From: Planctomycetota bacterium
GTDB taxonomy: Bacteria; Planctomycetota; Planctomycetia; Gemmatales; Gemmataceae
Reading direction: 5' to 3'
Assembly: GCA_016872595.1 (NCBI GenBank)
Contig: VGZJ01000022.1
Location: 1-36,786, forward strand
Length of the DNA stretch: 36,786 nt
Within the stretch, counting starts at the first letter, position 1. Each line of letters opens with the position of its first letter. A model generated the notes under the pieces. That model made no database searches. It worked only from the letters and a program-made list of their open reading frames with translations, and was not told the DNA's origin. Shown here piece after piece: positions 8,416 through 36,762 of the stretch. The position numbers were made by a program, and so were the translations under genes.

Positions 8416-10659
8416 ATGATCGCCGGGCTGTTCGTCGGGGCCGTACTCTGCGCCGGGGCCGAACCCCAACCCGAACCCGCGCCGCGGGGGCCGACCGAGG
8501 CCCGTAAGGACGCGCTCGCGCGCTACGGCGCGGCCGTTTGGAACGTGCGCCGCGAGCGACTCCTCTCGGCCGTCAAGCAACTCGAAGCGGTCGCGAAGGA
8601 CGACCCGGACGCCGCCGAACCGCGCCGCGAACTGGTCCGCCTGTACGCCCAACTCGGGCGCGAGCCGCGCGCCATCGAACTCGCCCGCAAGCTCCTCGAC
8701 AAAGACCCCGACGACGCCGACACCGCCGCGCTGCTCGCCCGGCTGCTGTTCGACGCGGGTGAACTGAAAGACGCGCTCGCCGCGGCCAAGCTCGCGGCCG
8801 GCGCGAAGGCGCTCGCCGACCGGCCCGACCGCGCGGTGCGCGTGTACCGCGACCTCGCCGCGCTGTGCGAGAAGGCCGACGACCTCGCGACCGCGGAGGC
8901 CGCGCTCCGCAAGGCCGTCGAACTGCTGACCGAGGGCCGGGCCGCGGTCATCAAAGTCGCCGCGTTCACGCCGAAGGAGGCCGACAGCGAGGCGGCGGAC
9001 CTGCTCGAACGGTTGGGGCAGATTCTGGTGAAGCGCCAGCAGCACGAGCCGGCGGCGGAAGCGTTCGCGGCGGCGGCGAAGCTGTACGCGGACCCCAAGA
9101 AGGTGAACGACCCCGCGAGCGCCGCGCGCCTGTCGTGGAACCTGTCCGGCGCGCTGGAGGCGCGCGGCGACGCCACCGCCGCGCTCAAGCACCTGCAGCA
9201 GTTCCTCAAGTACCAGCCGCGGGCCGCGGAGCCGTACCAGCGGCTCGCGCGCGTGCTCCGCGCCGCCGGGCGCGGCGACGACGTGGTGCCCACGCTCCAG
9301 CAATACGCCGACCGCGACAAACTGAACCGCCCGCTGGCCGCGGTGCTGGCCGCGGAGATGGCCGCGGACCCGGCCACGCGCCGCGCCGCCGACGAGCTGT
9401 TCGCCGCGCTGACCGGCGAGACGCACGACCCCGCCGTCATCGCCGTCGTGGTGCGCTCGCACCTCGACACGCGGCGCGCCGGCGAGATCATCAAAGACGT
9501 GGACCGCGCGTTCGCCGTGCTGAAAGAGAAGGACAAGGAGAAGGACAAGCCGGAGACGCCGGAAACGGCCGCGGCCCGCGAGTTCGCCGGGGCGAAGGCC
9601 CGCGCCTACGCCGACGCGCTCTTCAAGGAACCGGACGGCGTCGACGCGCTGCTGCGTGCGGCCGGCGACGACCTGAAGGCCGGCAACAAGCGCGCCTACG
9701 GCACCTACTTCTACCTCGGCTCGCTCGCGTTCCGCGCCCGCAAGCTCGAACTCGCCACGCTCCAATTCGAACAGGCCGTGCGGCTCGCGCCGCGCGACTC
9801 GCAGTCGGACGCTTACACGGCGCTCTTCCAAGTTCACTGGCTCGCCAACAAGCCGGACAAGGTCGAGGAACTGTGCGCCGGCGTACTGGCGGTCGATGAC
9901 CAGTTCCGCGCCGACGTGTTCTTCAACTTCCACCGCGCCCGCGCGCTCGCGGAGTTGGGCAAGAGCGCCGCCGCGCTCGCCGCGGCCGATAGCGCGATCA
10001 AGCAGGCCGGCGACGCCGACCGCCTCACGGTGCGCCTGCGCCGGCACCTCGTGTTGTGCATCGGCGGGCAGTGGGACGAGGCCATCGAGTACGGGACGAA
10101 GCTCGCGGACCAGTTCGACGCGCCCGCGGACCGGACCCGCGTGCGCCACGCGCAGGCCGCGGCGTACTGGGGCGCGAGGAAGCCCGCGGAGGCCGAGGCC
10201 GTGCTGCGCGCGATCCTCGACGACGACCCCGACAACGCCGGCGCGTGCAACGAGCTGGGCTACCACCTCGCAGATCAGGGCCGCAACTTGGACGAGGCCG
10301 AGCGCCTGATTCGTCACGCCATCGCCACCGACCGCATCGACCGGCGCAAGGCCGGGAGCGCGGACCCGGAGAGCGCCGCCTACCGCGACAGCCTCGGCTG
10401 GGTGCGGTTCCGGCGCGGCGACCTCGCCGGCGCGCGGGCCGAACTGGAAACGGCGGCGGCGCTGCCCGGCGGCGCGACCGATCCCGTCGTGTGGGACCAC
10501 CTCGGCGACGTGCTGTTCCGCTCTGGGGAGAAGGTGAAGGCGAGGGCCGCGTGGGAAAAGGCCCGCGACCTGTACGACGCCGACCCGCGCGCCTCGTCCC
10601 GCGGTCGGCGCGACGGCCTGCTCGCCGAAGTGAAGCGCAAGCTCGCGCGCCTGCCGTAG
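8416..10659 (+). CDS. Large tetratricopeptide-repeat (TPR) protein, probably exported
   Basis: A helical scaffold protein of 747 residues from the ATG at 8416. A short hydrophobic start (MIAGLFVGAVLCAGAEP) looks like a signal peptide or a single anchor. The rest is Ala/Leu-rich paired helices. TPR units are clear at about residues 40-110 (VKQLEAVAKDDPDAAEPRRELVRLYAQLG), 140-165 and 240-310, and again over the last 150 residues (NAGACNELGYHLADQG; YRDSLGWVRFRRGDLAGA; WDHLGDVLFRSGEKVKA). A charged KEKDKEKDK linker splits the protein near residue 375. Such proteins usually mediate protein-protein contacts in envelope complexes, but no partner is evident here. Confidence 0.88.
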   Translation: MIAGLFVGAVLCAGAEPQPEPAPRGPTEARKDALARYGAAVWNVRRERLLSAVKQLEAVAKDDPDAAEPRRELVRLYAQLGREPRAIELARKLLDKDPDDADTAALLARLLFDAGELKDALAAAKLAAGAKALADRPDRAVRVYRDLAALCEKADDLATAEAALRKAVELLTEGRAAVIKVAAFTPKEADSEAADLLERLGQILVKRQQHEPAAEAFAAAAKLYADPKKVNDPASAARLSWNLSGALEARGDATAALKHLQQFLKYQPRAAEPYQRLARVLRAAGRGDDVVPTLQQYADRDKLNRPLAAVLAAEMAADPATRRAADELFAALTGETHDPAVIAVVVRSHLDTRRAGEIIKDVDRAFAVLKEKDKEKDKPETPETAAAREFAGAKARAYADALFKEPDGVDALLRAAGDDLKAGNKRAYGTYFYLGSLAFRARKLELATLQFEQAVRLAPRDSQSDAYTALFQVHWLANKPDKVEELCAGVLAVDDQFRADVFFNFHRARALAELGKSAAALAAADSAIKQAGDADRLTVRLRRHLVLCIGGQWDEAIEYGTKLADQFDAPADRTRVRHAQAAAYWGARKPAEAEAVLRAILDDDPDNAGACNELGYHLADQGRNLDEAERLIRHAIATDRIDRRKAGSADPESAAYRDSLGWVRFRRGDLAGARAELETAAALPGGATDPVVWDHLGDVLFRSGEKVKARAAWEKARDLYDADPRASSRGRRDGLLAEVKRKLARLP

Positions 10660-10760: not shown

Positions 10761-12470
10761 ATGCGCCGCCTTCTCGCTCTCGTATTCGCGCTCCCGGCCC
10801 TCGCGTTAGCGACCGCCCAAGACGCCAAGCAGCCGGACGTGCCCAAGGGCACGACGTTCAACTTCACCTTCGCCAAGAGCAAGGTGTTCCCCGGCACCAC
10901 GCGAACCGTAACCGTGTACGTCCCGGCGCAGTACGACGGCAAAACGCCGGCGTGCGTGTACGTGAACCAAGACGGGCTGCCCGGCTACGTCGGGCCGACC
11001 TTCGACAGGCTCATCGCGGCGAAAGAGATGCCCGTTACCATCGCCGTCGGCGTCACGCCCGGTGTCGTGCCGGCCGCGAACAAGGACGCGCTGCCGCGGT
11101 TCAACCGGAGCTTCGAGTACGACGGCCTCGGCGACGCCTACGCCCGCATGCTGCTCGACGAACTGCTGCCCGAAGTGGAAACGAAGACCGCGAGCGGCGA
11201 CCGCAAGATCGTCCTCTCCAAGCGCGGCACCGACCGCGCCATCGGCGGCGCGAGCAGCGGGGCCATTTGCGCGTTCACGGTCGCGTGGGAGCGCCCGGAC
11301 GCCTTCACCCGCGTGTTCAGCACTATCGGCACCTACGTGGGCTTGCGCGGCGGCGACGTGTACCCGACGCTGGTCCGCAAGTTCGAGCCGAAGCCGCTCC
11401 GCGTGTACCTGCAAGACGGCAGCAAGGACCTGAACATCTACGGCGGCGACTGGTGGATGGCGAACCAGACGATGCAACGCGCGCTGGTCTTCGGCGGGTA
11501 CGAGGTCAAGCACTCGTGGAACGAGGGCGGGCACAACGGCGGCCTCGCGGCGCACGTGTTCCCCGAGGCGAGCGCGTTCCTGTGGAAGGACTGGCCCGAA
11601 CTCCCGAAGGCCGGGAAGGGGTCGAGTCAGTTGCAGGAGATTCTGATTCCGGGCGAGGGCTGGAAACTGGTCGGCGAGGGCTACAAGTTCACCGAGGGGC
11701 CTGCGACCGACGCCAAGGGGAACGTGGTCTTCAACGACGTGGGCGCGAGCAAGACGTACAAGGTGGTTGACGGCAAGCCGGTGGAGTGGCTCGCGGACAG
11801 CAAGCGCGGCGACGGCCAGCGGTTCGGCCCGGACGGGAAGCTGTACGCCAACAGCGCCGCCGAAAGCAAAGTGCTGGCGTGGGACGCCGACGGCAAGGCG
11901 ACCGAGTTCGCCGGCGGCTTCAAGGGCAACGATCTCGTGGTACTGGCGAACGTCGCGGTCTACGCCACGGCCCCGTTCGACCCGCCCACCAGCAAGGTCT
12001 ACTACGTCTCGCCGAAGGGCGAGGCGAAGGTGGTCGATACCGGGCTGAAGTTCGCCAACGGTATCACGGTGTCGCCGGACCAGACGCTGCTCTACGTCGC
12101 GGACAGCCGCACGCACTGGGTGTACAGCTACGTGATTCAGGCCGACGGCGCGCTGGCGAACAAGCAGAAGTACTACCACATCTACCAGCGCGACACGGAC
12201 GACGACACCGGCGCGGACGGCCTGCGCTGCGACCGCGACGGCCGCCTCTGGGTGGCGACCCGCGCCGGCCTTCAGGTGTGCGACCAAGCGGGCCGCGTGA
12301 ACTGCATCATCCCGACCCCGAACGGCAAGGTCTCGAACCTGACCTTCGGCGGCGCGGACATGGACACCGTGTACGCGACCTGCGGCGACAAGGTGTATTC
12401 GCGCAAGGTGAAGGTGAAGGGCGCGAACGCCTTCGAGAAGCCGTTCAAGCCCGCCACCCCGCGGCTGTGA
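10761..12470 (+). CDS. Secreted esterase fused to an SMP-30/gluconolactonase-like beta-propeller
   Basis: A secreted two-domain hydrolase of 569 residues. The signal peptide covers residues 1-19 (cleavage near ATA-QD) and the start follows GGAGG. Residues 30-290 are an alpha/beta-hydrolase of the esterase D / enterochelin-esterase type. The nucleophile elbow is GGASSGA with Ser165, and a His in the NEGGHNGG segment is likely the catalytic base. Residues of about 300-560 match the SMP-30/gluconolactonase propeller: KFTEGPATD with the metal-binding Glu, GNDLVV, NGITVSPDQTLLYVADS and DGLRCDRDGRLWVA. A combined role in opening ester or lactone bonds of a sugar acid is plausible but inferred. Confidence 0.9.
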   Translation: MRRLLALVFALPALALATAQDAKQPDVPKGTTFNFTFAKSKVFPGTTRTVTVYVPAQYDGKTPACVYVNQDGLPGYVGPTFDRLIAAKEMPVTIAVGVTPGVVPAANKDALPRFNRSFEYDGLGDAYARMLLDELLPEVETKTASGDRKIVLSKRGTDRAIGGASSGAICAFTVAWERPDAFTRVFSTIGTYVGLRGGDVYPTLVRKFEPKPLRVYLQDGSKDLNIYGGDWWMANQTMQRALVFGGYEVKHSWNEGGHNGGLAAHVFPEASAFLWKDWPELPKAGKGSSQLQEILIPGEGWKLVGEGYKFTEGPATDAKGNVVFNDVGASKTYKVVDGKPVEWLADSKRGDGQRFGPDGKLYANSAAESKVLAWDADGKATEFAGGFKGNDLVVLANVAVYATAPFDPPTSKVYYVSPKGEAKVVDTGLKFANGITVSPDQTLLYVADSRTHWVYSYVIQADGALANKQKYYHIYQRDTDDDTGADGLRCDRDGRLWVATRAGLQVCDQAGRVNCIIPTPNGKVSNLTFGGADMDTVYATCGDKVYSRKVKVKGANAFEKPFKPATPRL

Positions 12471-14684: not shown

Positions 14685-14687
14685 GCC

Positions 14688-14747
14688 GAAGAAACCCACC
14701 CCCCGGCCCACTCCCTTCAGGGAGTGGGCCGGGGGGTGGGTTTCTTC
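14688..14747 (+). terminator. Perfect 29-bp hairpin, 2-base loop
   Basis: Arms 14688-14716 and 14719-14747 are perfect 29-base complements. It starts 3 bases past the HEAT gene stop. The descending arm ends TTTCTTC, only weakly T-rich. Probably a terminator; it may also belong to an intergenic repeat family. Confidence 0.85.
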
Positions 14748-14825
14748 GCCTCTCACTTTCCGCGTGCATCCGGCCCCCCATCGCAGTACAAGTGCGGTGC
14801 CTCCCTTCTCACGGAGCCCGCCGCC

Positions 14826-19432: not shown

Positions 19433-20461
19433 ATGCCGACCGCTCTCCCGCTAACGACGAAAGAACTGACCACCGACCAAGCCGTGCGCTGGTGCCCCGG
19501 GTGCGGGGACTACAGCATCCTCGCGCAGATGAAGACGGCGCTGACCACGGTGGGCGTGCCACGCGAGAAGATGGCGTTCGTGTCGGGCATCGGCTGCTCC
19601 AGCCGGTTCCCGTACTACATGAACACCTACGGGTTCCACACGATCCACGGCCGCGCGCCCACGTTCGCCAGCGGCCTGCGGCTCGCCAACCCGGGCCTGC
19701 AAGTGTGGGTCGTCACCGGCGACGGCGACGGCCTGTCCATCGGCGGCAACCACCTGATCCACGCGCTGCGGCGCAACATGGACATCAAGGTGCTGCTGTT
19801 CAACAACGAGATCTACGGGCTGACGAAGGGCCAGTACTCGCCGGCCAGCCGCGTCGGGACGCCCACCAAGACCAGCCCCGGCGGGTCGTTCGAGACCCCC
19901 ATGCGCCCGCTGTCGGTGGCGCTCGCGGCCGAGGCCACGTTCGTCGCCCGCACCATCGACGTGGACGTGCAGCACCTCCGGGCCACCATCCAGAAGGCGG
20001 CCGAGCACAAGGGGAGCGCGTTCGTCGAGATCTACCAGAACTGCGTGATCTTCAACGACGACGTGTACAAGTACGCCACCGACAAGGCGGTGAAGGCCGA
20101 CAACCTGCTGTACCTCGAACACGGCAAGCCGATGATCTTCGGCAAGGACAAGAGCAAGGGCATCCGGCTCAACGGCCTCAAGCCCGAAGTGGTGACCATC
20201 GGCAAGGACTGTCAGATCGACGACCTGTTGACGCACGACGCGAATGCCGAGGACCCGACGCTGGCATACCTGCTGAGCCGGATGTCGCACGACGCGCGCG
20301 CCGCGGCCCCGTTCCCGGAGCCGGTCGGCGTGTTACGCAGCGTCAAGAAGCCCACCTTCGAGGACGCGCTCGACACCCGCGTCGCGAGCGCCGTCGAGAA
20401 GAAGGGGCCGGGCAAGATCGAAGACCTGTTCAAGGCCGAGGACATGTGGACGGTACAGTAG
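19433..20461 (+). CDS. korB: 2-oxoacid:ferredoxin oxidoreductase beta subunit
   Basis: Thiamine-diphosphate-binding partner of KorA; 342 residues. WCPGCG (20-25) supplies Cys ligands for a [4Fe-4S] cluster, with a further conserved Cys in GIGCSSR. GDGDG...GGNH (96-107) is the ThDP/Mg2+ motif. NNEIYGLTKGQ (about 124-134) is the usual next element. The C-terminal part, with FNDDVYKYATDK, fits the KorB/PorB subgroup of about 340 residues. It follows korA by 72 bases, and the gap holds the ACCAAAC repeat. The spacing and order indicate one transcript. Confidence 0.95.
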   Translation: MPTALPLTTKELTTDQAVRWCPGCGDYSILAQMKTALTTVGVPREKMAFVSGIGCSSRFPYYMNTYGFHTIHGRAPTFASGLRLANPGLQVWVVTGDGDGLSIGGNHLIHALRRNMDIKVLLFNNEIYGLTKGQYSPASRVGTPTKTSPGGSFETPMRPLSVALAAEATFVARTIDVDVQHLRATIQKAAEHKGSAFVEIYQNCVIFNDDVYKYATDKAVKADNLLYLEHGKPMIFGKDKSKGIRLNGLKPEVVTIGKDCQIDDLLTHDANAEDPTLAYLLSRMSHDARAAAPFPEPVGVLRSVKKPTFEDALDTRVASAVEKKGPGKIEDLFKAEDMWTVQ

Positions 20462-20463
20462 CC

Positions 20464-20571
20464 GTCAGCTATCAGCTATCAGCCATATAAAGAACCGGGA
20501 CGCGGGTGCCGACACGGGCGGCGCGTCCCGATTCGGCTTTCCGGCTGAAAGCTGATAGCTGACAGCTGATA
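20464..20571 (+). repeat. Nested inverted repeat built from AGCTATC / GCTGATA 7-mers
   Basis: Arms 20464-20484 and 20543-20563 are complementary over 21 bases with one mismatch. A second stem (20496-20504 with 20522-20530, 9 bp) is nested in the 58-base loop. The right side continues as four GCTGAxA 7-mers (20544-20571); the left side holds two AGCTATC copies. It starts 2 bases after the korB stop and ends 10 bases before the next ATG, leaving that gene without a Shine-Dalgarno. Confidence 0.9.
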
Positions 20572-29425: not shown

Positions 29426-29485
29426 GCGAGCCGCGACCGCAAGGGAGCGGTTTACGTTTCCCGCTCCCTTGCGGTCGCGGCTCGC
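29426..29485 (-). repeat. Perfect 25-bp inverted repeat after lpdA
   Basis: Arms 29426-29450 and 29461-29485 are perfect complements with a 10-base loop. It begins 8 bases past the stop of the dihydrolipoyl dehydrogenase gene. The sequence (GCGAGCCGCGACCGCAAGGG...) resembles a palindrome I recall as recurring between planctomycete genes; that needs a genome count. Confidence 0.9.
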
Positions 29486-31800: not shown

Positions 31801-31923
31801 CAGAAGGTAGCAGAGTTTCGACAGGATCACAGGATAACACAGGATGAAACGAGAGGAATACCAACGCCCCAACTCTTCATCCTGTGTTATCCTGTGATCC
31901 TGTCGAAACTCTTCTGCCTTCTG
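31801..31923 (-). repeat. 48-bp inverted repeat with ACAGGAT words
   Basis: Arms 31801-31848 and 31876-31923 are complementary over 48 bases with two mismatches; the inner 37 bases are perfect. The loop is 27 bases. ACAGGAT occurs at 31821, 31829 and 31839, spaced 8 and 10. It begins 11 bases past the stop of the zinc-ribbon gene at 31935. Confidence 0.95.
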
Positions 31924-31934
31924 TTTTTTGGGTC

Positions 31935-32486
31935 CTACTCTTCGCCGGTCAAGCCCTTGATGAAGGCGACCAGCCCGATGATGAACAGGATTGGTGGGTA
32001 GAAGAAGATGATGTCGTTGGCGAGGCCGATGACGAACCACACGACCGCGCCGATCATCGCCAAGAGGCCCACGGCCACGCCGCCGTGGACCACGTTCCCC
32101 TCGAAGCTGCGCCCGCTGTTCTCTTCGGCCCCGCTGCTCGACCCGCGGCGGAACTTCTTCTTCTTGGGCTTCTTCTTGGGCTTTTCTTCCTCTTCGTCCT
32201 CGTCCTCGTCGCGCGACTTGGTGCGCGCCATGCGATAGCCGGTCTTCGGCGCGTCGTCGTCGTCATCGTCGTCGTACTTCGATGTGGGCTTGCCGACGGG
32301 CCGCGCCGCGACCTTCGGCTTCGGCTCGTCCTCGACCACCTCGAACTGCGGTTCGGGTTCGGGCGGCGGCTCCGGCGCGGGCACGGTGCCGACGAGGTTG
32401 CACGCGGGGCACTTCACGCGCCGGCCGGCGAAGTCGTCGCCGACGCGCAGCGTCTTTCCGCACGGGCAGTCGAAGGTGATGGGCAC
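31935..32486 (-). CDS. Zinc-ribbon protein with charged linker and membrane helices
   Basis: 183 residues. The GTG start at 32486 is set by comparison with its paralogue just upstream, whose product begins almost identically (PI-FDC-CGKTLRV). Residues 6-34 form a zinc ribbon (CPCG...CPAC). A strongly charged middle follows: a run of Asp, then Asp/Glu-rich and Lys-rich blocks (about 70-125). The C-terminus has two membrane helices (GGVAVGLLAMIGAVVWFVIGLA; IIFFYPPILFIIGLVAFI). Role unknown. Its start lies 10 bases past the stop of the paralogue, so the two form an operon. Confidence 0.82.
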   Translation of the reverse strand: MPITFDCPCGKTLRVGDDFAGRRVKCPACNLVGTVPAPEPPPEPEPQFEVVEDEPKPKVAARPVGKPTSKYDDDDDDDAPKTGYRMARTKSRDEDEDEEEEKPKKKPKKKKFRRGSSSGAEENSGRSFEGNVVHGGVAVGLLAMIGAVVWFVIGLANDIIFFYPPILFIIGLVAFIKGLTGEE

Positions 32487-32496
32487 GGGCGCGGTC

Positions 32497-32877
32497 CTAC
32501 TGGTAGTTATCGGTTCCCTTGCGGAAGTTCGGCAGCCCGCCGCCCGGCCCGCCGCTCTTGCCCTTCGGCTTGCCGGTTCCCTTTCGCGGGCCAGCGCCGG
32601 AATCGTCGTCGTCGTTGCGGTCGGGTTTGGCGAGTCCGTAGGTGCTGCCGTCGTCGGAGTCGTCGTCCACAACCGGCTTGGGGGCGGGCAGTTCGCCGTG
32701 GCGGGCGGCCCCGGCGCGCGGCGGCGGGGGCGGCGGCTCCTCGACGATCTCGAACTGCGGTTCCGGTAGCGGCACGGTCAGCACCGCGGCACACGCGGGG
32801 CACTTCGCCCGCCGCCCGGCGAACTCGTCCGGCACGCGCAGCGTCTTCCCGCACGAGCAGTCGAACGCGATCGGCAT
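32497..32877 (-). CDS. Zinc-ribbon protein, soluble paralogue
   Basis: 126 residues. The N-terminal ribbon (CSCGKTLRVPDEFAGRRAKCPAC) is nearly the same as that of the next gene. After a Pro-rich stretch the chain is acidic, then Gly/Lys-rich, with no membrane segment. This ribbon often starts envelope or regulatory proteins in planctomycetes. It looks like a tandem duplication that lost, or never gained, the membrane part. Confidence 0.8.
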   Translation of the reverse strand: MPIAFDCSCGKTLRVPDEFAGRRAKCPACAAVLTVPLPEPQFEIVEEPPPPPPRAGAARHGELPAPKPVVDDDSDDGSTYGLAKPDRNDDDDSGAGPRKGTGKPKGKSGGPGGGLPNFRKGTDNYQ

Positions 32878-33226
32878 GGCGCTCCCCCGGGTGTCACCCG
32901 CAGTTAAACCGAGCGCGCGAAGAATTGCAAGCTGCGTCGGAAATATGAACGCGAAGACCGGAAGAGTTCGATCCGCAGATTGCGCAGATGGACGCAGATT
33001 TCCAGAAGGCAGGAAGAGAGTTCACCACAGAGTCACAGAGAGCACAGAGCAAGGCAGAAGGCAGAGTAAGCAAAGAGAATGCAGGATTTGAACCCCAATC
33101 TTCTCTCTTCCTCTGTCTTTTGCCTTCCTCAGTGCCCTCTGTGACTCTGTGGTGAACTCTCTTCCTGCCTTCTGGAAATCTGCGTCCATCTGCGCAATCT
33201 GCGGATCGAACTCTTCCGGCTCCGGC
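32878..33226. other. 349-base gene-free gap
   Basis: Most of the gap is the giant inverted repeat listed separately. The 80 bases nearest the zinc-ribbon start (32878-32957) should hold its promoter, but I see no clear -10/-35 pair there. Confidence 0.6.
32958..33219 (-). repeat. Giant inverted repeat, 83-bp perfect arms
   Basis: Arms 32958-33040 and 33137-33219 are perfect complements over 83 bases. The 96-base middle also pairs in part, so almost the whole 262 bases can fold. The arms combine three parts: CGCAGAT words at 32974, 32983 and 32993; a CCAGAAGGCAGGAAGAGAG segment; and CACAGAG words at 33026, 33034 and 33043. It begins 7 bases past the stop of the S46 peptidase gene. Confidence 0.97.
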
Positions 33227-35368
33227 TTACTTCTTGCCGGTCAGCTCGTCGGCCAGCGCGCCGGCGTCGTACACCTTGCGCAGCGACTCGATGATCGCCC
33301 GGCTGTCCACCGACACCGCCCGCGCGATCGTGTCGTCGTAGATGAAGTCGAGCACCAGCGACTGGATGTTGCCGTCGAAGATCAGCCCGACCACTTCGCC
33401 CTTTGTGTTGACGACCGGCGAGCCGCTGTTGCCGCCGATGATGTCCGCGGTGCAGACGAAGTTGTACGGCGTCTTCAGGTCGAGTTTGTCCTTACGCTCG
33501 ACCCACCGCTTGGGCAGTTCGAACGGCCCCTTGTTGCCCTGTTCCTTCGAGCGGGCGTACAGGCCGTCCATCGTGGTGAACGCGGGCACGTCCTTGCCGT
33601 CCTCCTTGTACCCCTTCACGGTGCCGAACGCGAGCCGCAGGGTGAACGTGGCGTCCGGGTACACCTTGTCCCCGTCCATCGCGAACTTGGCCTTCGCCAG
33701 CGCGCTGTACGCCTGACGCTTCGGCTCGTCGACCTCGTTCTCGAACCGCTTGCGGACCGCGCGGCACGCGGGGTCGACCAGCGCCGCCACGTCGAGCATC
33801 GGGTCCTTGAGAACGCTGAGGTCGAGGGTGCCGCCGTTCTTGGTCGCGGTCTCGATGTTCTCGAAAACCTGCTTGCGGAACTTGGGGTCGCGCACCTTCG
33901 TGCCGCTAATCAGGTCGTAGGCGCGCTCGCGCGGCGATTTCCCGGCCAGCACCTTCTTCACGAGGTCCGAGTCCGGCCCCAGCGTGACCGCGAGGAACTG
34001 CAGCCCGTCCGCGAGCTTCAGCGTTTCGAGGTCTTCGTAGATCGGTTCGTCCGAGAACAGGCCGAACTTGAGGCTGGGCAGCCGGGCGTCGGCGAACTCG
34101 CGCAGGCGCTCCGCGTTCGGCTTCGGCAGTTCCGCGGCGGCGCGCACCAGCGTGCGGGCGATGCCGAACGACGCGCTGTTGAACCCGGCCGAGTTTTCCA
34201 GAACCGTGATGTCCTTGATGAGGTCGGTGCGGACCTTCTCGGCCTTCGCCACGGTCGCGAACGCGGCCTTGGCGTTGTTCACCATCGTCGTGGTCGCGGT
34301 GTCGGTGTCGTGCGGGCCGTTGAGGAACGCCTTCAGCCGCTCCTCGTCCTTGATCTTGCGGCCCATGAGCTTCGGGTCCATCAGCCCGGCCAGCCCGCCG
34401 ATGCGGGCCTTGCGGCTGTTCTGGATGCTGAACAGTTCCTCTTCGCTCTTCTGGCTGTTGGCCTCGCTGCGCGCGCCCCACGAGCCGAGCAGCACTTCGA
34501 GCCGGTTCAGGCGGTTCAGGAGGTACGGGTAACCGGTGTCGCGCAGGTACTTGAGCTCGTCGGTGGTGTTGCCGCGGTTGGTGCGGCCGGGGTGCCCGCT
34601 GACCAGAACCAGCTCGTCGGCCTTCGCGCCGGCGGCGCTCCACTTCAGGTAGTTCTCGGTGTTCAGCGGCTTGCCGTCTTCCCAGACGCGGAAGAAGGCG
34701 ACGTCGAGGTCGAACCGCGGGTACTCGAAGTTGTCCGGGTCGCCGCCGAAGAACGCGGCCTGCTTCTCCGGGGCGAACACGATGCGGATGTCGGTGTACT
34801 TCTTGAAGGTGTACAGGTGGTACTGCCCGCCGGCGTACAGCGTGACCACGTCGGCCCGCACGTTCTTGGCGGGGTCGGCCGCGCCCTTCTCAAGCTCGGC
34901 GATCTTCGCGGTGCGCAGCTTGAAGGCCTCGGCCGGCGCGGTGCCCGCGGGCACGGCCTTTTCGACCTCCGCGGTCACGTCCTTGATGGCCGTGAGCACG
35001 TTCAGTTCCAGCCCCTTGCACTTGATCTCGTCGTCGTGGTTCTTGGCGAGGAACCCGTCGCGTAGGTAGTTCTTCTCGGCGGTCGAAACCTTGTCGAGGT
35101 CGTGGGCGGCGACGTGGTGGTTGGTCATCACGAGGCCGGTGGGCGAGACGAAGCTGCCGCTGCCGCCGGAGTTGAACCGGACGCTAGAGAGGCGCACGTG
35201 GTCGAGCCACTTCTGGTCCGGCTCGAAACCGTACTTCTTGAGCTGGGCGCGGGGCGGGTTGCTGAACAACCACATGCCCTCATCGGCCGGGCTTTTCTTG
35301 GGGGTCATGAACAGTCCCAGCGCGGCGCAACCGGCCGCGACGACGAGGAACCGAATCGGGGAACGCAT
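33227..35368 (-). CDS. S46-family dipeptidyl-peptidase
   Basis: Exported serine peptidase that removes dipeptides from peptide N-termini. 713 residues from the ATG at 35368, the usual length. A signal peptide covers about residues 1-27. The chymotrypsin-like triad is visible: His85 in TNHHVAAHDL, an Asp in FDLDVAFFR and Ser648 in GGNSGSPV. The large helical S46 insert lies between. The substrate-pocket segment reads GLIFDGN, with Gly where DPP11 enzymes have Arg, so a DPP7-like preference for hydrophobic residues is expected. This last point is inference. The protein probably helps digest peptides in the periplasm. Confidence 0.92.
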   Translation of the reverse strand: MRSPIRFLVVAAGCAALGLFMTPKKSPADEGMWLFSNPPRAQLKKYGFEPDQKWLDHVRLSSVRFNSGGSGSFVSPTGLVMTNHHVAAHDLDKVSTAEKNYLRDGFLAKNHDDEIKCKGLELNVLTAIKDVTAEVEKAVPAGTAPAEAFKLRTAKIAELEKGAADPAKNVRADVVTLYAGGQYHLYTFKKYTDIRIVFAPEKQAAFFGGDPDNFEYPRFDLDVAFFRVWEDGKPLNTENYLKWSAAGAKADELVLVSGHPGRTNRGNTTDELKYLRDTGYPYLLNRLNRLEVLLGSWGARSEANSQKSEEELFSIQNSRKARIGGLAGLMDPKLMGRKIKDEERLKAFLNGPHDTDTATTTMVNNAKAAFATVAKAEKVRTDLIKDITVLENSAGFNSASFGIARTLVRAAAELPKPNAERLREFADARLPSLKFGLFSDEPIYEDLETLKLADGLQFLAVTLGPDSDLVKKVLAGKSPRERAYDLISGTKVRDPKFRKQVFENIETATKNGGTLDLSVLKDPMLDVAALVDPACRAVRKRFENEVDEPKRQAYSALAKAKFAMDGDKVYPDATFTLRLAFGTVKGYKEDGKDVPAFTTMDGLYARSKEQGNKGPFELPKRWVERKDKLDLKTPYNFVCTADIIGGNSGSPVVNTKGEVVGLIFDGNIQSLVLDFIYDDTIARAVSVDSRAIIESLRKVYDAGALADELTGKK

Positions 35369-35456
35369 GGTGCGCCTCACGGCGTAAGGGACCGGCGCGC
35401 GAGTGTTGGGAGGAGGCAATCGCCGGGGCGCATCGTTATAAGGCGCACCGCGCGAC

Positions 35457-35484
35457 GGGGCCACCCGCGGAAGAGGGTGGCCCC
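35457..35484 (-). terminator. 10-bp hairpin between the LRR and S46 genes
   Basis: GGGGCCACCC (35457-35466) pairs perfectly with GGGTGGCCCC (35475-35484) with an 8-base loop. It is 54 bases past the LRR gene stop. Confidence 0.5.
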
Positions 35485-35538
35485 AACAACCCGCGGCCCG
35501 CGCACGCCGAACCGTGCCGATCTGTCCCGGCCCCCGGC

Positions 35539-36762
35539 TCACTTCTTCGGCTCGATCACGCCACCGTCGTGTACGATTTTGCACCCCGGCACCGCCGCGT
35601 GGAACTCTTCGAGCGCCTTCGCCGTCACCTTCGTCTTCCGGACGTCGAGGTGCTTCACCTTCGTCTTCCGGACGTCGAGGTGCTTCAGGTTTTTGCAGTC
35701 CTTGAACTGTGCCAGCCCCGCGTCGCTCACCTGCGTGTTGCTCAAGTAGAGTTGCGTCAGGTTCTTGCAGTCCTTGAAGTGGGCCAGACCCGCGTCGCTC
35801 ACCTGCGTGCCGTTCAGGCCGAGTTGCGTCAGGTTCTTGCAGTCCTTGAAGTGGGCCAGACCCGCGTCGCTCACCTGCGTTCCGAGCAGGTTGAGGTGCG
35901 TCAGGTTCTTGCAGTCCTTGAAGTGGGCCAGACCCGCGTCGCTCACCTGCGTTCCGAGCAGGTTGAGGTGCGTCAGGTTTTTGCAGTCCTTGAAGTGGGC
36001 CAGACCCGCGTCGCTCACCTGCGTGTTGCTCAAGTAGAGGTGCGTCAGGTTCTTGCAGTCCTTGAAGTGGGCCAGACCCGCGTCGCTCACCTGCGTGCCG
36101 TTCAGGGTGAGTTGCGTCAGGTTTTTGCATTCTTTGAAGTGGGCCAGACCCGCGTCGCTCACCTGCGTGTTGCCGTGCAGATTGAGTAACGACAAGAAGA
36201 ACTTGTCTTTCGGTAACTCGCCCACGGCTTTGATGTTGCGGTTTCCGCCGTTGACGGACACAACGCCGCCGATGGAGATGGCGTATTCGGCCGCTTTGCG
36301 ATCGACATCAACGGCTTCGATCACGCCGCCGTCGTGCTCAATCTTGCACCCCGGCACCGCCGCGTGGAACTCTTCGAGCGCCTTCGCCGTCACCTTCGTC
36401 TTCCGGACGTCGAGGTACGTCAGGTTCTTGCAGTCTTTGAAGTGAGCCAGACCCGCGTCGCTCACCTGCGTGTTGCTCAAGTAGAGGAGCGTCAGGTTCT
36501 TGCAGTCCTTGAAATGGGCCAGACCCGCGTCGGTCAACTCCTTGTTCGCATCGAGATTCACGACCGTGAGCTGGAACGCCTCCTTTGGCAACTCCTTCAC
36601 GTCACGCACGTCTCGCTCGCCACCATTGATGCGGATGATGCCGCCGATGGAGAGGACATATTCCGCCGCCCGGCGGTCGGGGTCGGACTTACTGATCCGC
36701 AGGTAGGGAATCCTGTCTATCTCCTCCTCGCATATGGGAAGGGTAGGTCGGACCCGTCCCAC
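35539..36762 (-). CDS. Leucine-rich-repeat protein, two modules (probably 5' partial)
   Basis: At least 407 residues from the GTG at 36762. The frame is still open to the window edge and no ribosome-binding site supports this start, so the true N-terminus may lie outside. The chain has two copies of one module. Each begins with DRxAAEYxxSIGG...ELPK, continues with 24-residue LRRs (TQVSDAGLAHFKDCKNL) and ends in LDVRKTKVTAKALEEFHAAVPGCKI-HDGGVIE. The first module has about two full repeats, the second seven. LRRs bind proteins. No signal peptide, kinase or membrane segment is visible in this part. Confidence 0.88.
   Translation of the reverse strand: MGRVRPTLPICEEEIDRIPYLRISKSDPDRRAAEYVLSIGGIIRINGGERDVRDVKELPKEAFQLTVVNLDANKELTDAGLAHFKDCKNLTLLYLSNTQVSDAGLAHFKDCKNLTYLDVRKTKVTAKALEEFHAAVPGCKIEHDGGVIEAVDVDRKAAEYAISIGGVVSVNGGNRNIKAVGELPKDKFFLSLLNLHGNTQVSDAGLAHFKECKNLTQLTLNGTQVSDAGLAHFKDCKNLTHLYLSNTQVSDAGLAHFKDCKNLTHLNLLGTQVSDAGLAHFKDCKNLTHLNLLGTQVSDAGLAHFKDCKNLTQLGLNGTQVSDAGLAHFKDCKNLTQLYLSNTQVSDAGLAQFKDCKNLKHLDVRKTKVKHLDVRKTKVTAKALEEFHAAVPGCKIVHDGGVIEPKK
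35627..35686 (-). repeat. 30-bp perfect tandem duplication in the LRR gene
   Basis: Two identical 30-base copies (35627-35656 and 35657-35686) insert the ten residues KHLDVRKTKV twice. The other module has only one copy of this segment. It is in frame and looks recent. Confidence 0.95.
35686..36189 (-). repeat. Seven 72-bp LRR-coding repeats
   Basis: Units start at 35686, 35758, 35830, 35902, 35974, 36046 and 36118, an exact 72-base period. They are nearly identical at the DNA level, differing mainly in a few codons at the variable face (YLSN, GLNG, NLLG, TLNG). Confidence 0.95.
36421..36564 (-). repeat. Two further 72-bp LRR-coding repeats
   Basis: Units start at 36421 and 36493. The second is diverged at its far end (ELTDAGL instead of QVSDAGL). 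They belong to the shorter module of the same gene. Confidence 0.85.

Follow-up and report, generated by a model that had tools for sequence, protein, structure and literature searches.

A nested palindrome of short word arrays in a planctomycete genome: a probable dispersed repeat of REPIN/MITE-like behavior

The window analyzed here (the whole stretch of 36,786 nucleotides, which is contig C22 in a draft assembly of 6.8 Mb and 590 contigs) carries at 32958–33219 a long composite palindrome. We consider it probable that this is a recently inserted, non-autonomous dispersed palindromic repeat, REPIN/MITE-like, whose modular build would come from nesting and which an enzyme acting in trans would spread. 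It is REPIN/MITE-like in behavior, yet two features of REPINs fail in the loci checked. The observations that bear on this reading are a repeat family with several module combinations, an intergenic bias toward the 3′ side of genes, uneven copy number, a word array found across phyla, the lineage-specific presence of a related copy, and the lack of a linked transposase at the loci checked. The unusual feature is the word-array unit, which is common to bacteria and archaea; literature searches with the exact words gave no description of the CACAGAG array (among the matching papers listed, all looked unrelated by title).

Architecture of the Palindrome

The features of this part of the window are the following.

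31801–31923, no strand assigned: second palindrome, ACAGGAT word family, with perfect arms at 31812–31848 and 31876–31912
32497–32877, minus strand: gene for a small protein with paired cysteines, resembling a zinc ribbon, without a Pfam hit
32958–33219, no strand assigned: the whole composite palindrome, CGCAGAT words outer and CACAGAG words inner
32958–33040, plus strand: left perfect arm, 83 bp
32974–32999, plus strand: CGCAGAT array in steps of 9 and 10, with its mirror at 33178–33203 on the minus strand
33003–33016, plus strand: CAGAAGGCAGGAAG linking part, with its mirror at 33161–33174
33026–33049, plus strand: CACAGAG array in steps of 8 and 9, with mirror words at 33137–33143 and 33145–33151
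33082–33095, no strand assigned: central loop, 14 nt
33137–33219, minus strand: right perfect arm, 83 bp
33227–36130, minus strand: Peptidase S46 ORF, called as 33227–35368 by our own codon-usage model

An 83-bp perfect inverted repeat assembled from three word families had been predicted from inspection of the letters, and it was confirmed at 32958–33040 and 33137–33219, 7 nt past the stop codon of the Peptidase S46 gene. The predicted word spacing holds as well. In the left arm the CGCAGAT words start at 32974, 32983, and 32993, AGAAGGCAG starts at 33004, and the CACAGAG words start at 33026, 33034, and 33043, with the nuance that the third CACAGAG lies beyond the perfect part and that its counterpart in the partner arm, further inward, reads CACTGAG. 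Counted without gaps, the arms extend to 124 nt and are 91% complementary around the 14-nt loop. Perfect pairing ends at 32958 and 33219, and the next five positions are mismatched; further out, at 6 to 20 nt from these ends, complementarity returns at 10 of the 15 positions (0.4% of random pairs in the window do as well), which may be due to chance or to an old, decayed outer part. Folded as a single RNA strand, the palindrome has an energy of −237 kcal/mol (z = −24.5, with none of 200 shuffles as stable), and 20 stretches of the same genome hold 83 hairpins of score at least 18 versus none after one codon-block shuffle. A chance origin of the hairpin is excluded on these grounds.

The motif CAGAAGG, which the original prediction placed at the ends of the second palindrome, was seen there at 31801 (plus strand) and 31923 (minus strand). 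Several palindrome families in this genome commonly have CAGAAG-type parts near their ends, which fits the link that had been drawn to 31801–31923.

A Dispersed and Modular Repeat Family

A BLASTN search of the element against its own genome returned 90 alignments, which merging by hand reduced to at least 40 places, counting the window (a first look gave 63 candidates, of which 40 were scored, and more copies are possible). The arms are thus not unique in the genome; uniqueness was the outcome that the original prediction had named against itself, and it does not hold. Tandem CACAGAG has 59 matches in this genome versus 1 for the reversed control, and tandem ACAGGAT has 133 versus 0. A census of long hairpins counted 241 in 1.08 Mb, a sample consisting of the window and 60 stretches picked for holding such repeats, so that its densities are not genome averages; contiguous relatives have 15 in 200 kb and 12 in 125 kb. 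The hairpins of the genome include word-array families (ACAGGAT, CACAGAG, CGCAGAT, CCGCGGAG, CACAAA, AGTGGGCAG, GATTGACG, and others), GTAG-tagged palindromes of known REP kind, and a CCCCTTCCC family, with 71 of the 218 intergenic hairpins left unsorted.

Module order was read along word clusters in 79 sources, with a clustering rule of 130 nt. Thirteen clusters are CACAGAG-only, five are CGCAGAT-only, and six have CGCAGAT outside and CACAGAG inside, the kind to which the window palindrome belongs; three more of this kind are half-seen or split by the clustering rule, and asymmetric forms also occur (L003, L011). One cluster has CGCAGAT outside and ACAGGAT inside, and none of the 79 sources has arrays in the reverse nesting, CACAGAG outside CGCAGAT. 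The loop of one CACAGAG palindrome (L015) includes a lone CGCAGAT-like word, and a few further mixed arrangements are each represented by one cluster. The two modules are hence found both alone and combined, as a modular build would have it. The accompanying idea that the palindrome had grown by the addition of units fits less well, and the structure is probably better read as a palindrome within a palindrome that then spread. We infer nesting followed by multiplication of the composite because the junctions look alike by eye in several copies; the loops of several copies also look related by eye.

In the mechanism we propose, the basic unit would be about 25–30 bp long, TTAACC-ACAGAG-N-CACAGAG-NN-CACAGAG, i.e., three CACAGAG words. 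Such units would commonly be paired in inverted orientation around a loop, making a hairpin possible, and an enzyme acting in trans, encoded elsewhere, would make further copies of them. Copies found just after stop codons would sit where harm is least. A CACAGAG palindrome may have come to lie within a CGCAGAT palindrome and the composite may then have spread as a unit, which would account for the mosaic arms, and perfect arms would mark a young copy among older ones that have decayed.

The arms themselves were compared in 31 elements of at least 90 nt. The median identity of an arm is 0.81 with its partner, 0.72 with a typical other arm, and 0.87 with the best-matching one among all others, and an arm's own partner is its best match in 5 of the 31 elements. 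The window copy, with its long arms, ranks second of 31 in arm identity, and the arms of most other copies are more decayed. The arms of family copies seem to decay after insertion, and the window copy is most simply read as young, its youth being the probable cause of its perfect arms. Perfect identity had been put down to either recent formation or upkeep by gene conversion; recent formation probably holds, given the greater decay of most copies, and gene conversion is not needed, since a partner is the best match as rarely as age alone would give.

Position and Turnover at the 3′ Ends of Genes

Genes of the sampled genome were called with our own codon-usage model (879 genes). The 218 intergenic hairpins of all families lie between tandem (149), convergent (48), and divergent (21) genes, where intergenic length would predict 128, 31, and 58 (p = 1.6e-8); of the remaining hairpins, 17 are in genes and 6 at edges. 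The CACAGAG/CGCAGAT class has 29 tandem, 5 convergent, and 2 divergent copies and 1 in a gene, at a median of 10 nt from the stop codon and 28 from the start. Among 96 array elements taken across phyla, 12 lie inside ORFs, 8 are unclassified, and 76 are classified as convergent (28), tandem (38), or divergent (10), and gaps below 60 nt make up 47/94 of those facing a stop versus 15/58 of those facing a start. The class is intergenic, biased to the 3′ side of genes, and rare between divergent genes.

Close relatives allow presence to be compared with absence. A CACAAAG/CACAGAG palindrome related to the window copy (L134:10955–11122) is missing in all three relatives that have both flanks, with spacings between the aligned flanks of 5 nt (G006), 3 nt (G012), and 40 nt (G016), and is most simply a gain in its own lineage. 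No target-site duplication is visible by eye against these empty sites, which agrees at this one site with what had been stated for the window copy. The empty-site comparison is that of the related copy only, as the contig of the nearest relative ends before the site orthologous to the window palindrome.

Matches to the S46 gene were found in 18 congeners, and the loci of 17 relatives reach the site and were compared over the first 400 nt past the stop codon (L205 over 68 nt). In ten of them the gene is followed by an unrelated hairpin scoring at least 14 (L196, L197, L200, L201, L203, L204, L206, L207, L209, L212), in two by a 10-bp hairpin (L199, L208), and in four by no local hairpin (L198, L202, L210, L211); L205 is not judgeable, and the contig of G006 (L195) ends before the site. 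For a CACAGAG copy at L134:9039–9189, 14 relatives with both flanks were compared. Four have a hairpin of score at least 13 in this slot, made of AAGTTCC words in L248, a GTAG doublet in L253, and AGTGGGC words in L255, the fourth being L256; weaker hairpins score 10–12 in two relatives and 7–9 in four, and no hairpin seed is seen in the slot in the last four (L247, L249, L252, L261). The notion of a palindrome in the same slot of every relative was dropped after this comparison.

Tandem CACAGAG ranges among the 18 congeners from 0 matches (five genomes: G001, G002, G003, G013, G015) to 159 (G009), with many matches also in G008 and G011, against 0 to 28 per genome for the reversed control, the 28 being in G009 too; arrays of period 8 may fit the reversed pattern as well. 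Congeners with no tandem-word matches and with more than 150 offer a direct comparative test. Two relatives that are 96% identical at the S46 region (G001 and G002) show 13 length differences of at least 30 nt between collinear blocks over about 78 kb, and six of the 13 have, in the longer copy, a hairpin scoring at least 18 that belongs to other palindrome families. An imperfect repeat of about 12–14 nt stands on either side of one such hairpin difference, which is not of the CACAGAG kind. Neither genome has any tandem CACAGAG, so their differences show a turnover of palindromes in general. In the first of the two (G001:C1, about 1728000–1729000), a loxP-like sequence stands beside a run of N, which we take to be probably a sequencing linker left in the assembly.

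The Array across Phyla

One scan of species genomes found the ACCACAGAGNCACAGAGNNCACAGAG pattern (ACC-CACAGAG-N-CACAGAG-NN-CACAGAG) in at least 115 stretches. Among the matches listed, the carriers are Planctomycetota, Verrucomicrobia, Acidobacteria, Chloroflexi, Sorangium, Cyanobacteria, Chlamydiae, Spirochaetes, Proteobacteria, and a Prevotella in the bacteria, and Methanothrix and Diapherotrites in the archaea; most are metagenome bins, in which misbinning is possible, and Verrucomicrobium, Sorangium, Nostoc, and Calothrix are isolates. Sorangium cellulosum So0157-2 (NC_021658.1) is a complete genome. Tandem CACAGAG has 4 to 403 matches in 46 carrier genomes, all positive by construction because they were picked for a triplet-carrying locus, and tandem ACAGGAT occurs in 12 of the 46. 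Of 294 genomes of the phylum, 21 contain the exact triplet, the genome under study among them (control 0), and its spacer letters are mostly constant within several genomes of the phylum.

Little is conserved across phyla beyond TTAACC and the array. The complementarity of 41 cross-phylum pairs drops from 0.73 beside the array to 0.2–0.44 from 5 nt outward. For 134 hits, partners within 400 nt face inward in 78 cases, outward in 6, and the same direction in 3 (the 134 count both arms of some elements, and the 41 pairs follow a different, deduplicated pairing rule). In the rows listed for a Pyrinomonadaceae genome (G042) and a Methanothrix bin (G032), CACAGAG arrays are mostly outward, at a spacing of about 25–60 nt. 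These genomes and the nine outward or same-direction partners led us to drop the rule that arrays always face inward. In L036 (Nostoc) and L101 the CACAGAG array lies within a longer inverted repeat starting GGGACTTCCAA, another case of nesting. The array is also found in 68 stretches of IMG/VR contigs (L276–L343), some of which may be host DNA; a plasmid search with the 262-bp element as query gave no match.

Most word families of the genome under study share a polarity. The 5′ arms are purine-rich and T-poor in all ACAGGAT (41/41), CACAGAG (15/15), and combined (6/6) copies, and purine-rich in 14/34 of the GTAG, 2/9 of the CCCCTTCCC (reverse), and 40/71 of the unsorted hairpins. Over all 241 hairpins, the purine content of the 5′ arm is at least 60% in 108, at most 40% in 8, and between these in 125, and in the contiguous relatives purine-rich and purine-poor 5′ arms number 8 versus 1 of 15 and 3 versus 1 of 12. 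Copies within a family are not independent in these counts, and the outward-facing genomes elsewhere break the purine-rich rule.

Known Repeat Systems and the Search for an Enzyme

Palindromes of the MITE, ERIC, and NEMIS types are about 100–260 bp long, intergenic, palindromic, and non-autonomous. The element described here is likewise about 100–260 bp, intergenic, palindromic, and non-autonomous, and as in MITEs it is short and non-coding, with terminal inverted repeats and many dispersed copies. It differs in that no target-site duplication was seen by eye at one site of a related copy and in that its conserved part is a word array found across phyla. The original prediction set the palindrome apart from MITEs, a distinction not borne out by its dispersed family, lineage-specific presence, and very uneven copy number between relatives, traits seen in MITEs and REPINs alike.

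REP, REPIN, and BIME sequences are described as GTAG- or CGTC-tagged extragenic palindromes and as inverted doublets capable of forming hairpins (PMC3733652, PMC3116915), and GTAG repeats are reported from Planctomycetes too (PMC3733652). As these accounts have it, they resemble the present element in being short extragenic inverted doublets that can fold and that are sometimes found inserted into other palindromes. The pairing of two inverted copies across a spacer, with the potential to fold as a hairpin, is found here as in REPINs. The word arrays differ in that they carry no GTAG/CGTC foot (among the commonest terminal 7-mers of CACAGAG and CGCAGAT elements there is no GTAG/GTGG-type foot), in that no linked Y1 gene was found, and in that the arm is a triplet of a 7-nt word at steps of 8–10 nt, where theirs is a palindrome of 20–40 bp. 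The small dispersed repeats of cyanobacteria, described as very short, dispersed, and possibly mobile (PMC2884548), are like the array in those same respects, going by the description. A rare class of TnpA-Y1 (class 3), reported to accompany atypical structures of high copy number with a CnGA foot in Planctomycetes and Acidobacteria (PMC6006769), is suggestive only, in that the CAGA within the words fits such a foot; the difference is that L224–L226 read YIxNQ or YILRQ and L228 reads YVLNNP, with no class 3 protein among the four read.

The genome has five Y1_Tnp genes (L224–L228), two of which are flanked by REP-like palindromes and none by word arrays. The flanking palindromes of L227 and L228 (C241, C291) are of the GCGAGCGGCGCGGCG...GTAGCTACCGG and GGCCTC...GGCCGGCTAC types, which also occur elsewhere in the genome, and these two genes with their palindromes are ordinary REP/RAYT pairs. 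Such resident genes, together with the likeness of the element, as an inverted doublet with hairpin potential, to the REPINs described in PMC3116915, raise the thought that it is a REPIN spread in trans by a Y1 transposase of the RAYT type. We hold this to be highly improbable: no GTAG foot is common to the ends of the family, and no array stands beside the Y1 gene at the five loci of this genome or at 11 carrier loci (one inspected per carrier). Moreover, Y1 (E up to 0.001) is common in carriers (11/12) and non-carriers (20/24) alike, so that its presence does not discriminate carriers, and one carrier with two triplets (G338) has no Y1. A parent transposon was sought by all-against-all blastp of 3,470 ORFs from 115 cross-phylum loci, and no protein family was found within 1 kb of the array at more than four of them.

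Alternative Explanations

The strong bias toward stop codons and away from divergent regions would also be expected of a selected 3′-end element, a bidirectional terminator or an mRNA-stabilizing hairpin kept after stop codons for its RNA function, and the ten relatives with a hairpin of score at least 14 within 400 nt after the S46 stop, plus the two with a 10-bp hairpin, speak for it too; these hairpins, and the small number of relatives with a palindrome in the slot at 9039, weigh slightly toward this reading and away from that of a mobile repeat. We nevertheless find it unlikely. The transcribed strand has no excess of G-U over A-C mismatches, either over all families (121 versus 131, p = 0.57) or in the CACAGAG/CGCAGAT class (32 versus 44), these counts covering tandem contexts only and leaving compensatory changes uncounted. 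In this class a T-tract (at least five T in 8 nt) follows the 3′ arm in just 2 of 29 cases, and a search of Rfam found no family at gathering score (33 matches, all below it, mostly microRNA families). Nor do relatives keep such elements: the related copy is lacking in three of three at the L134 site at 10955, and four have no local hairpin in the S46 slot and four no hairpin seed in the slot at 9039. An intrinsic terminator or selected RNA is not supported by T-tract, G-U bias, or Rfam, and the palindrome's unlikeness to a usual terminator, part of the original prediction, was upheld by the rare T-tract and the lack of G-U bias.

An origin in place is a very unlikely alternative, in which the palindrome was formed and perfected by template switching on a quasi-palindrome and the words arose by slippage, all without transposition. 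Replication template switching on quasi-palindromes is a mechanism described in the literature, and words at steps of 8–10 nt suit slippage. Against this, the same words recur in the same layout at at least 40 places of this genome and in many phyla, several copies have loops that look related, and the partner arm is the best match in so few copies (5/31) that homogenization is not the rule. An assembly artefact, for which the origin of the window in a draft of 590 contigs might be cited, is next to impossible with many copies in different flanks and with the array in isolate or complete genomes such as that of S. cellulosum So0157-2. The reading as a mobile, REPIN/MITE-like repeat has its own counterevidence: among the loci checked there was no mobilizing enzyme, and no target-site duplication or exact excision was seen; the mostly outward arrays listed for G042 and G032 make the unit less uniform than in the genome under study; and the two slots studied are not always used, being without a hairpin in many relatives.

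The stretches examined contain many such repeats, which turn over between close relatives at the 3′ ends of genes. That unrelated phyla carry the same array suggests a mobile or recurrent process, one that was not found in the catalogues and papers searched. It is conceivable, though we would call it doubtful, that the array is a very small mobile DNA shared across domains, with the triplet of a 7-nt word (CACAGAG or one like it) as its unit, occurring as singlets and inverted pairs, nesting, and copied by an undescribed enzyme that reads the array. If such an enzyme were found, it would mean that very small DNA can be spread in a way not known before.

Other Features of the Window

Further palindromes of other families lie at 14687–14748, 29426–29485, and 20460–20567 (CCCCCCGGCCC, GACCGCAAGGGAGCGG, and AGCTATCAGC words). 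The adjacent genes at 31935–32486 and 32497–32877 have in common an 88-nt stretch (84%) that codes for their cysteine-paired, zinc-ribbon-like start, and in some relatives one or two genes similar to these stand beside S46. Coding repeats of about 72 nt occupy about 35650–36530, in the gene upstream of S46, with self matches at 35871, 35943, 36015, 36109, 36312, and 36481.
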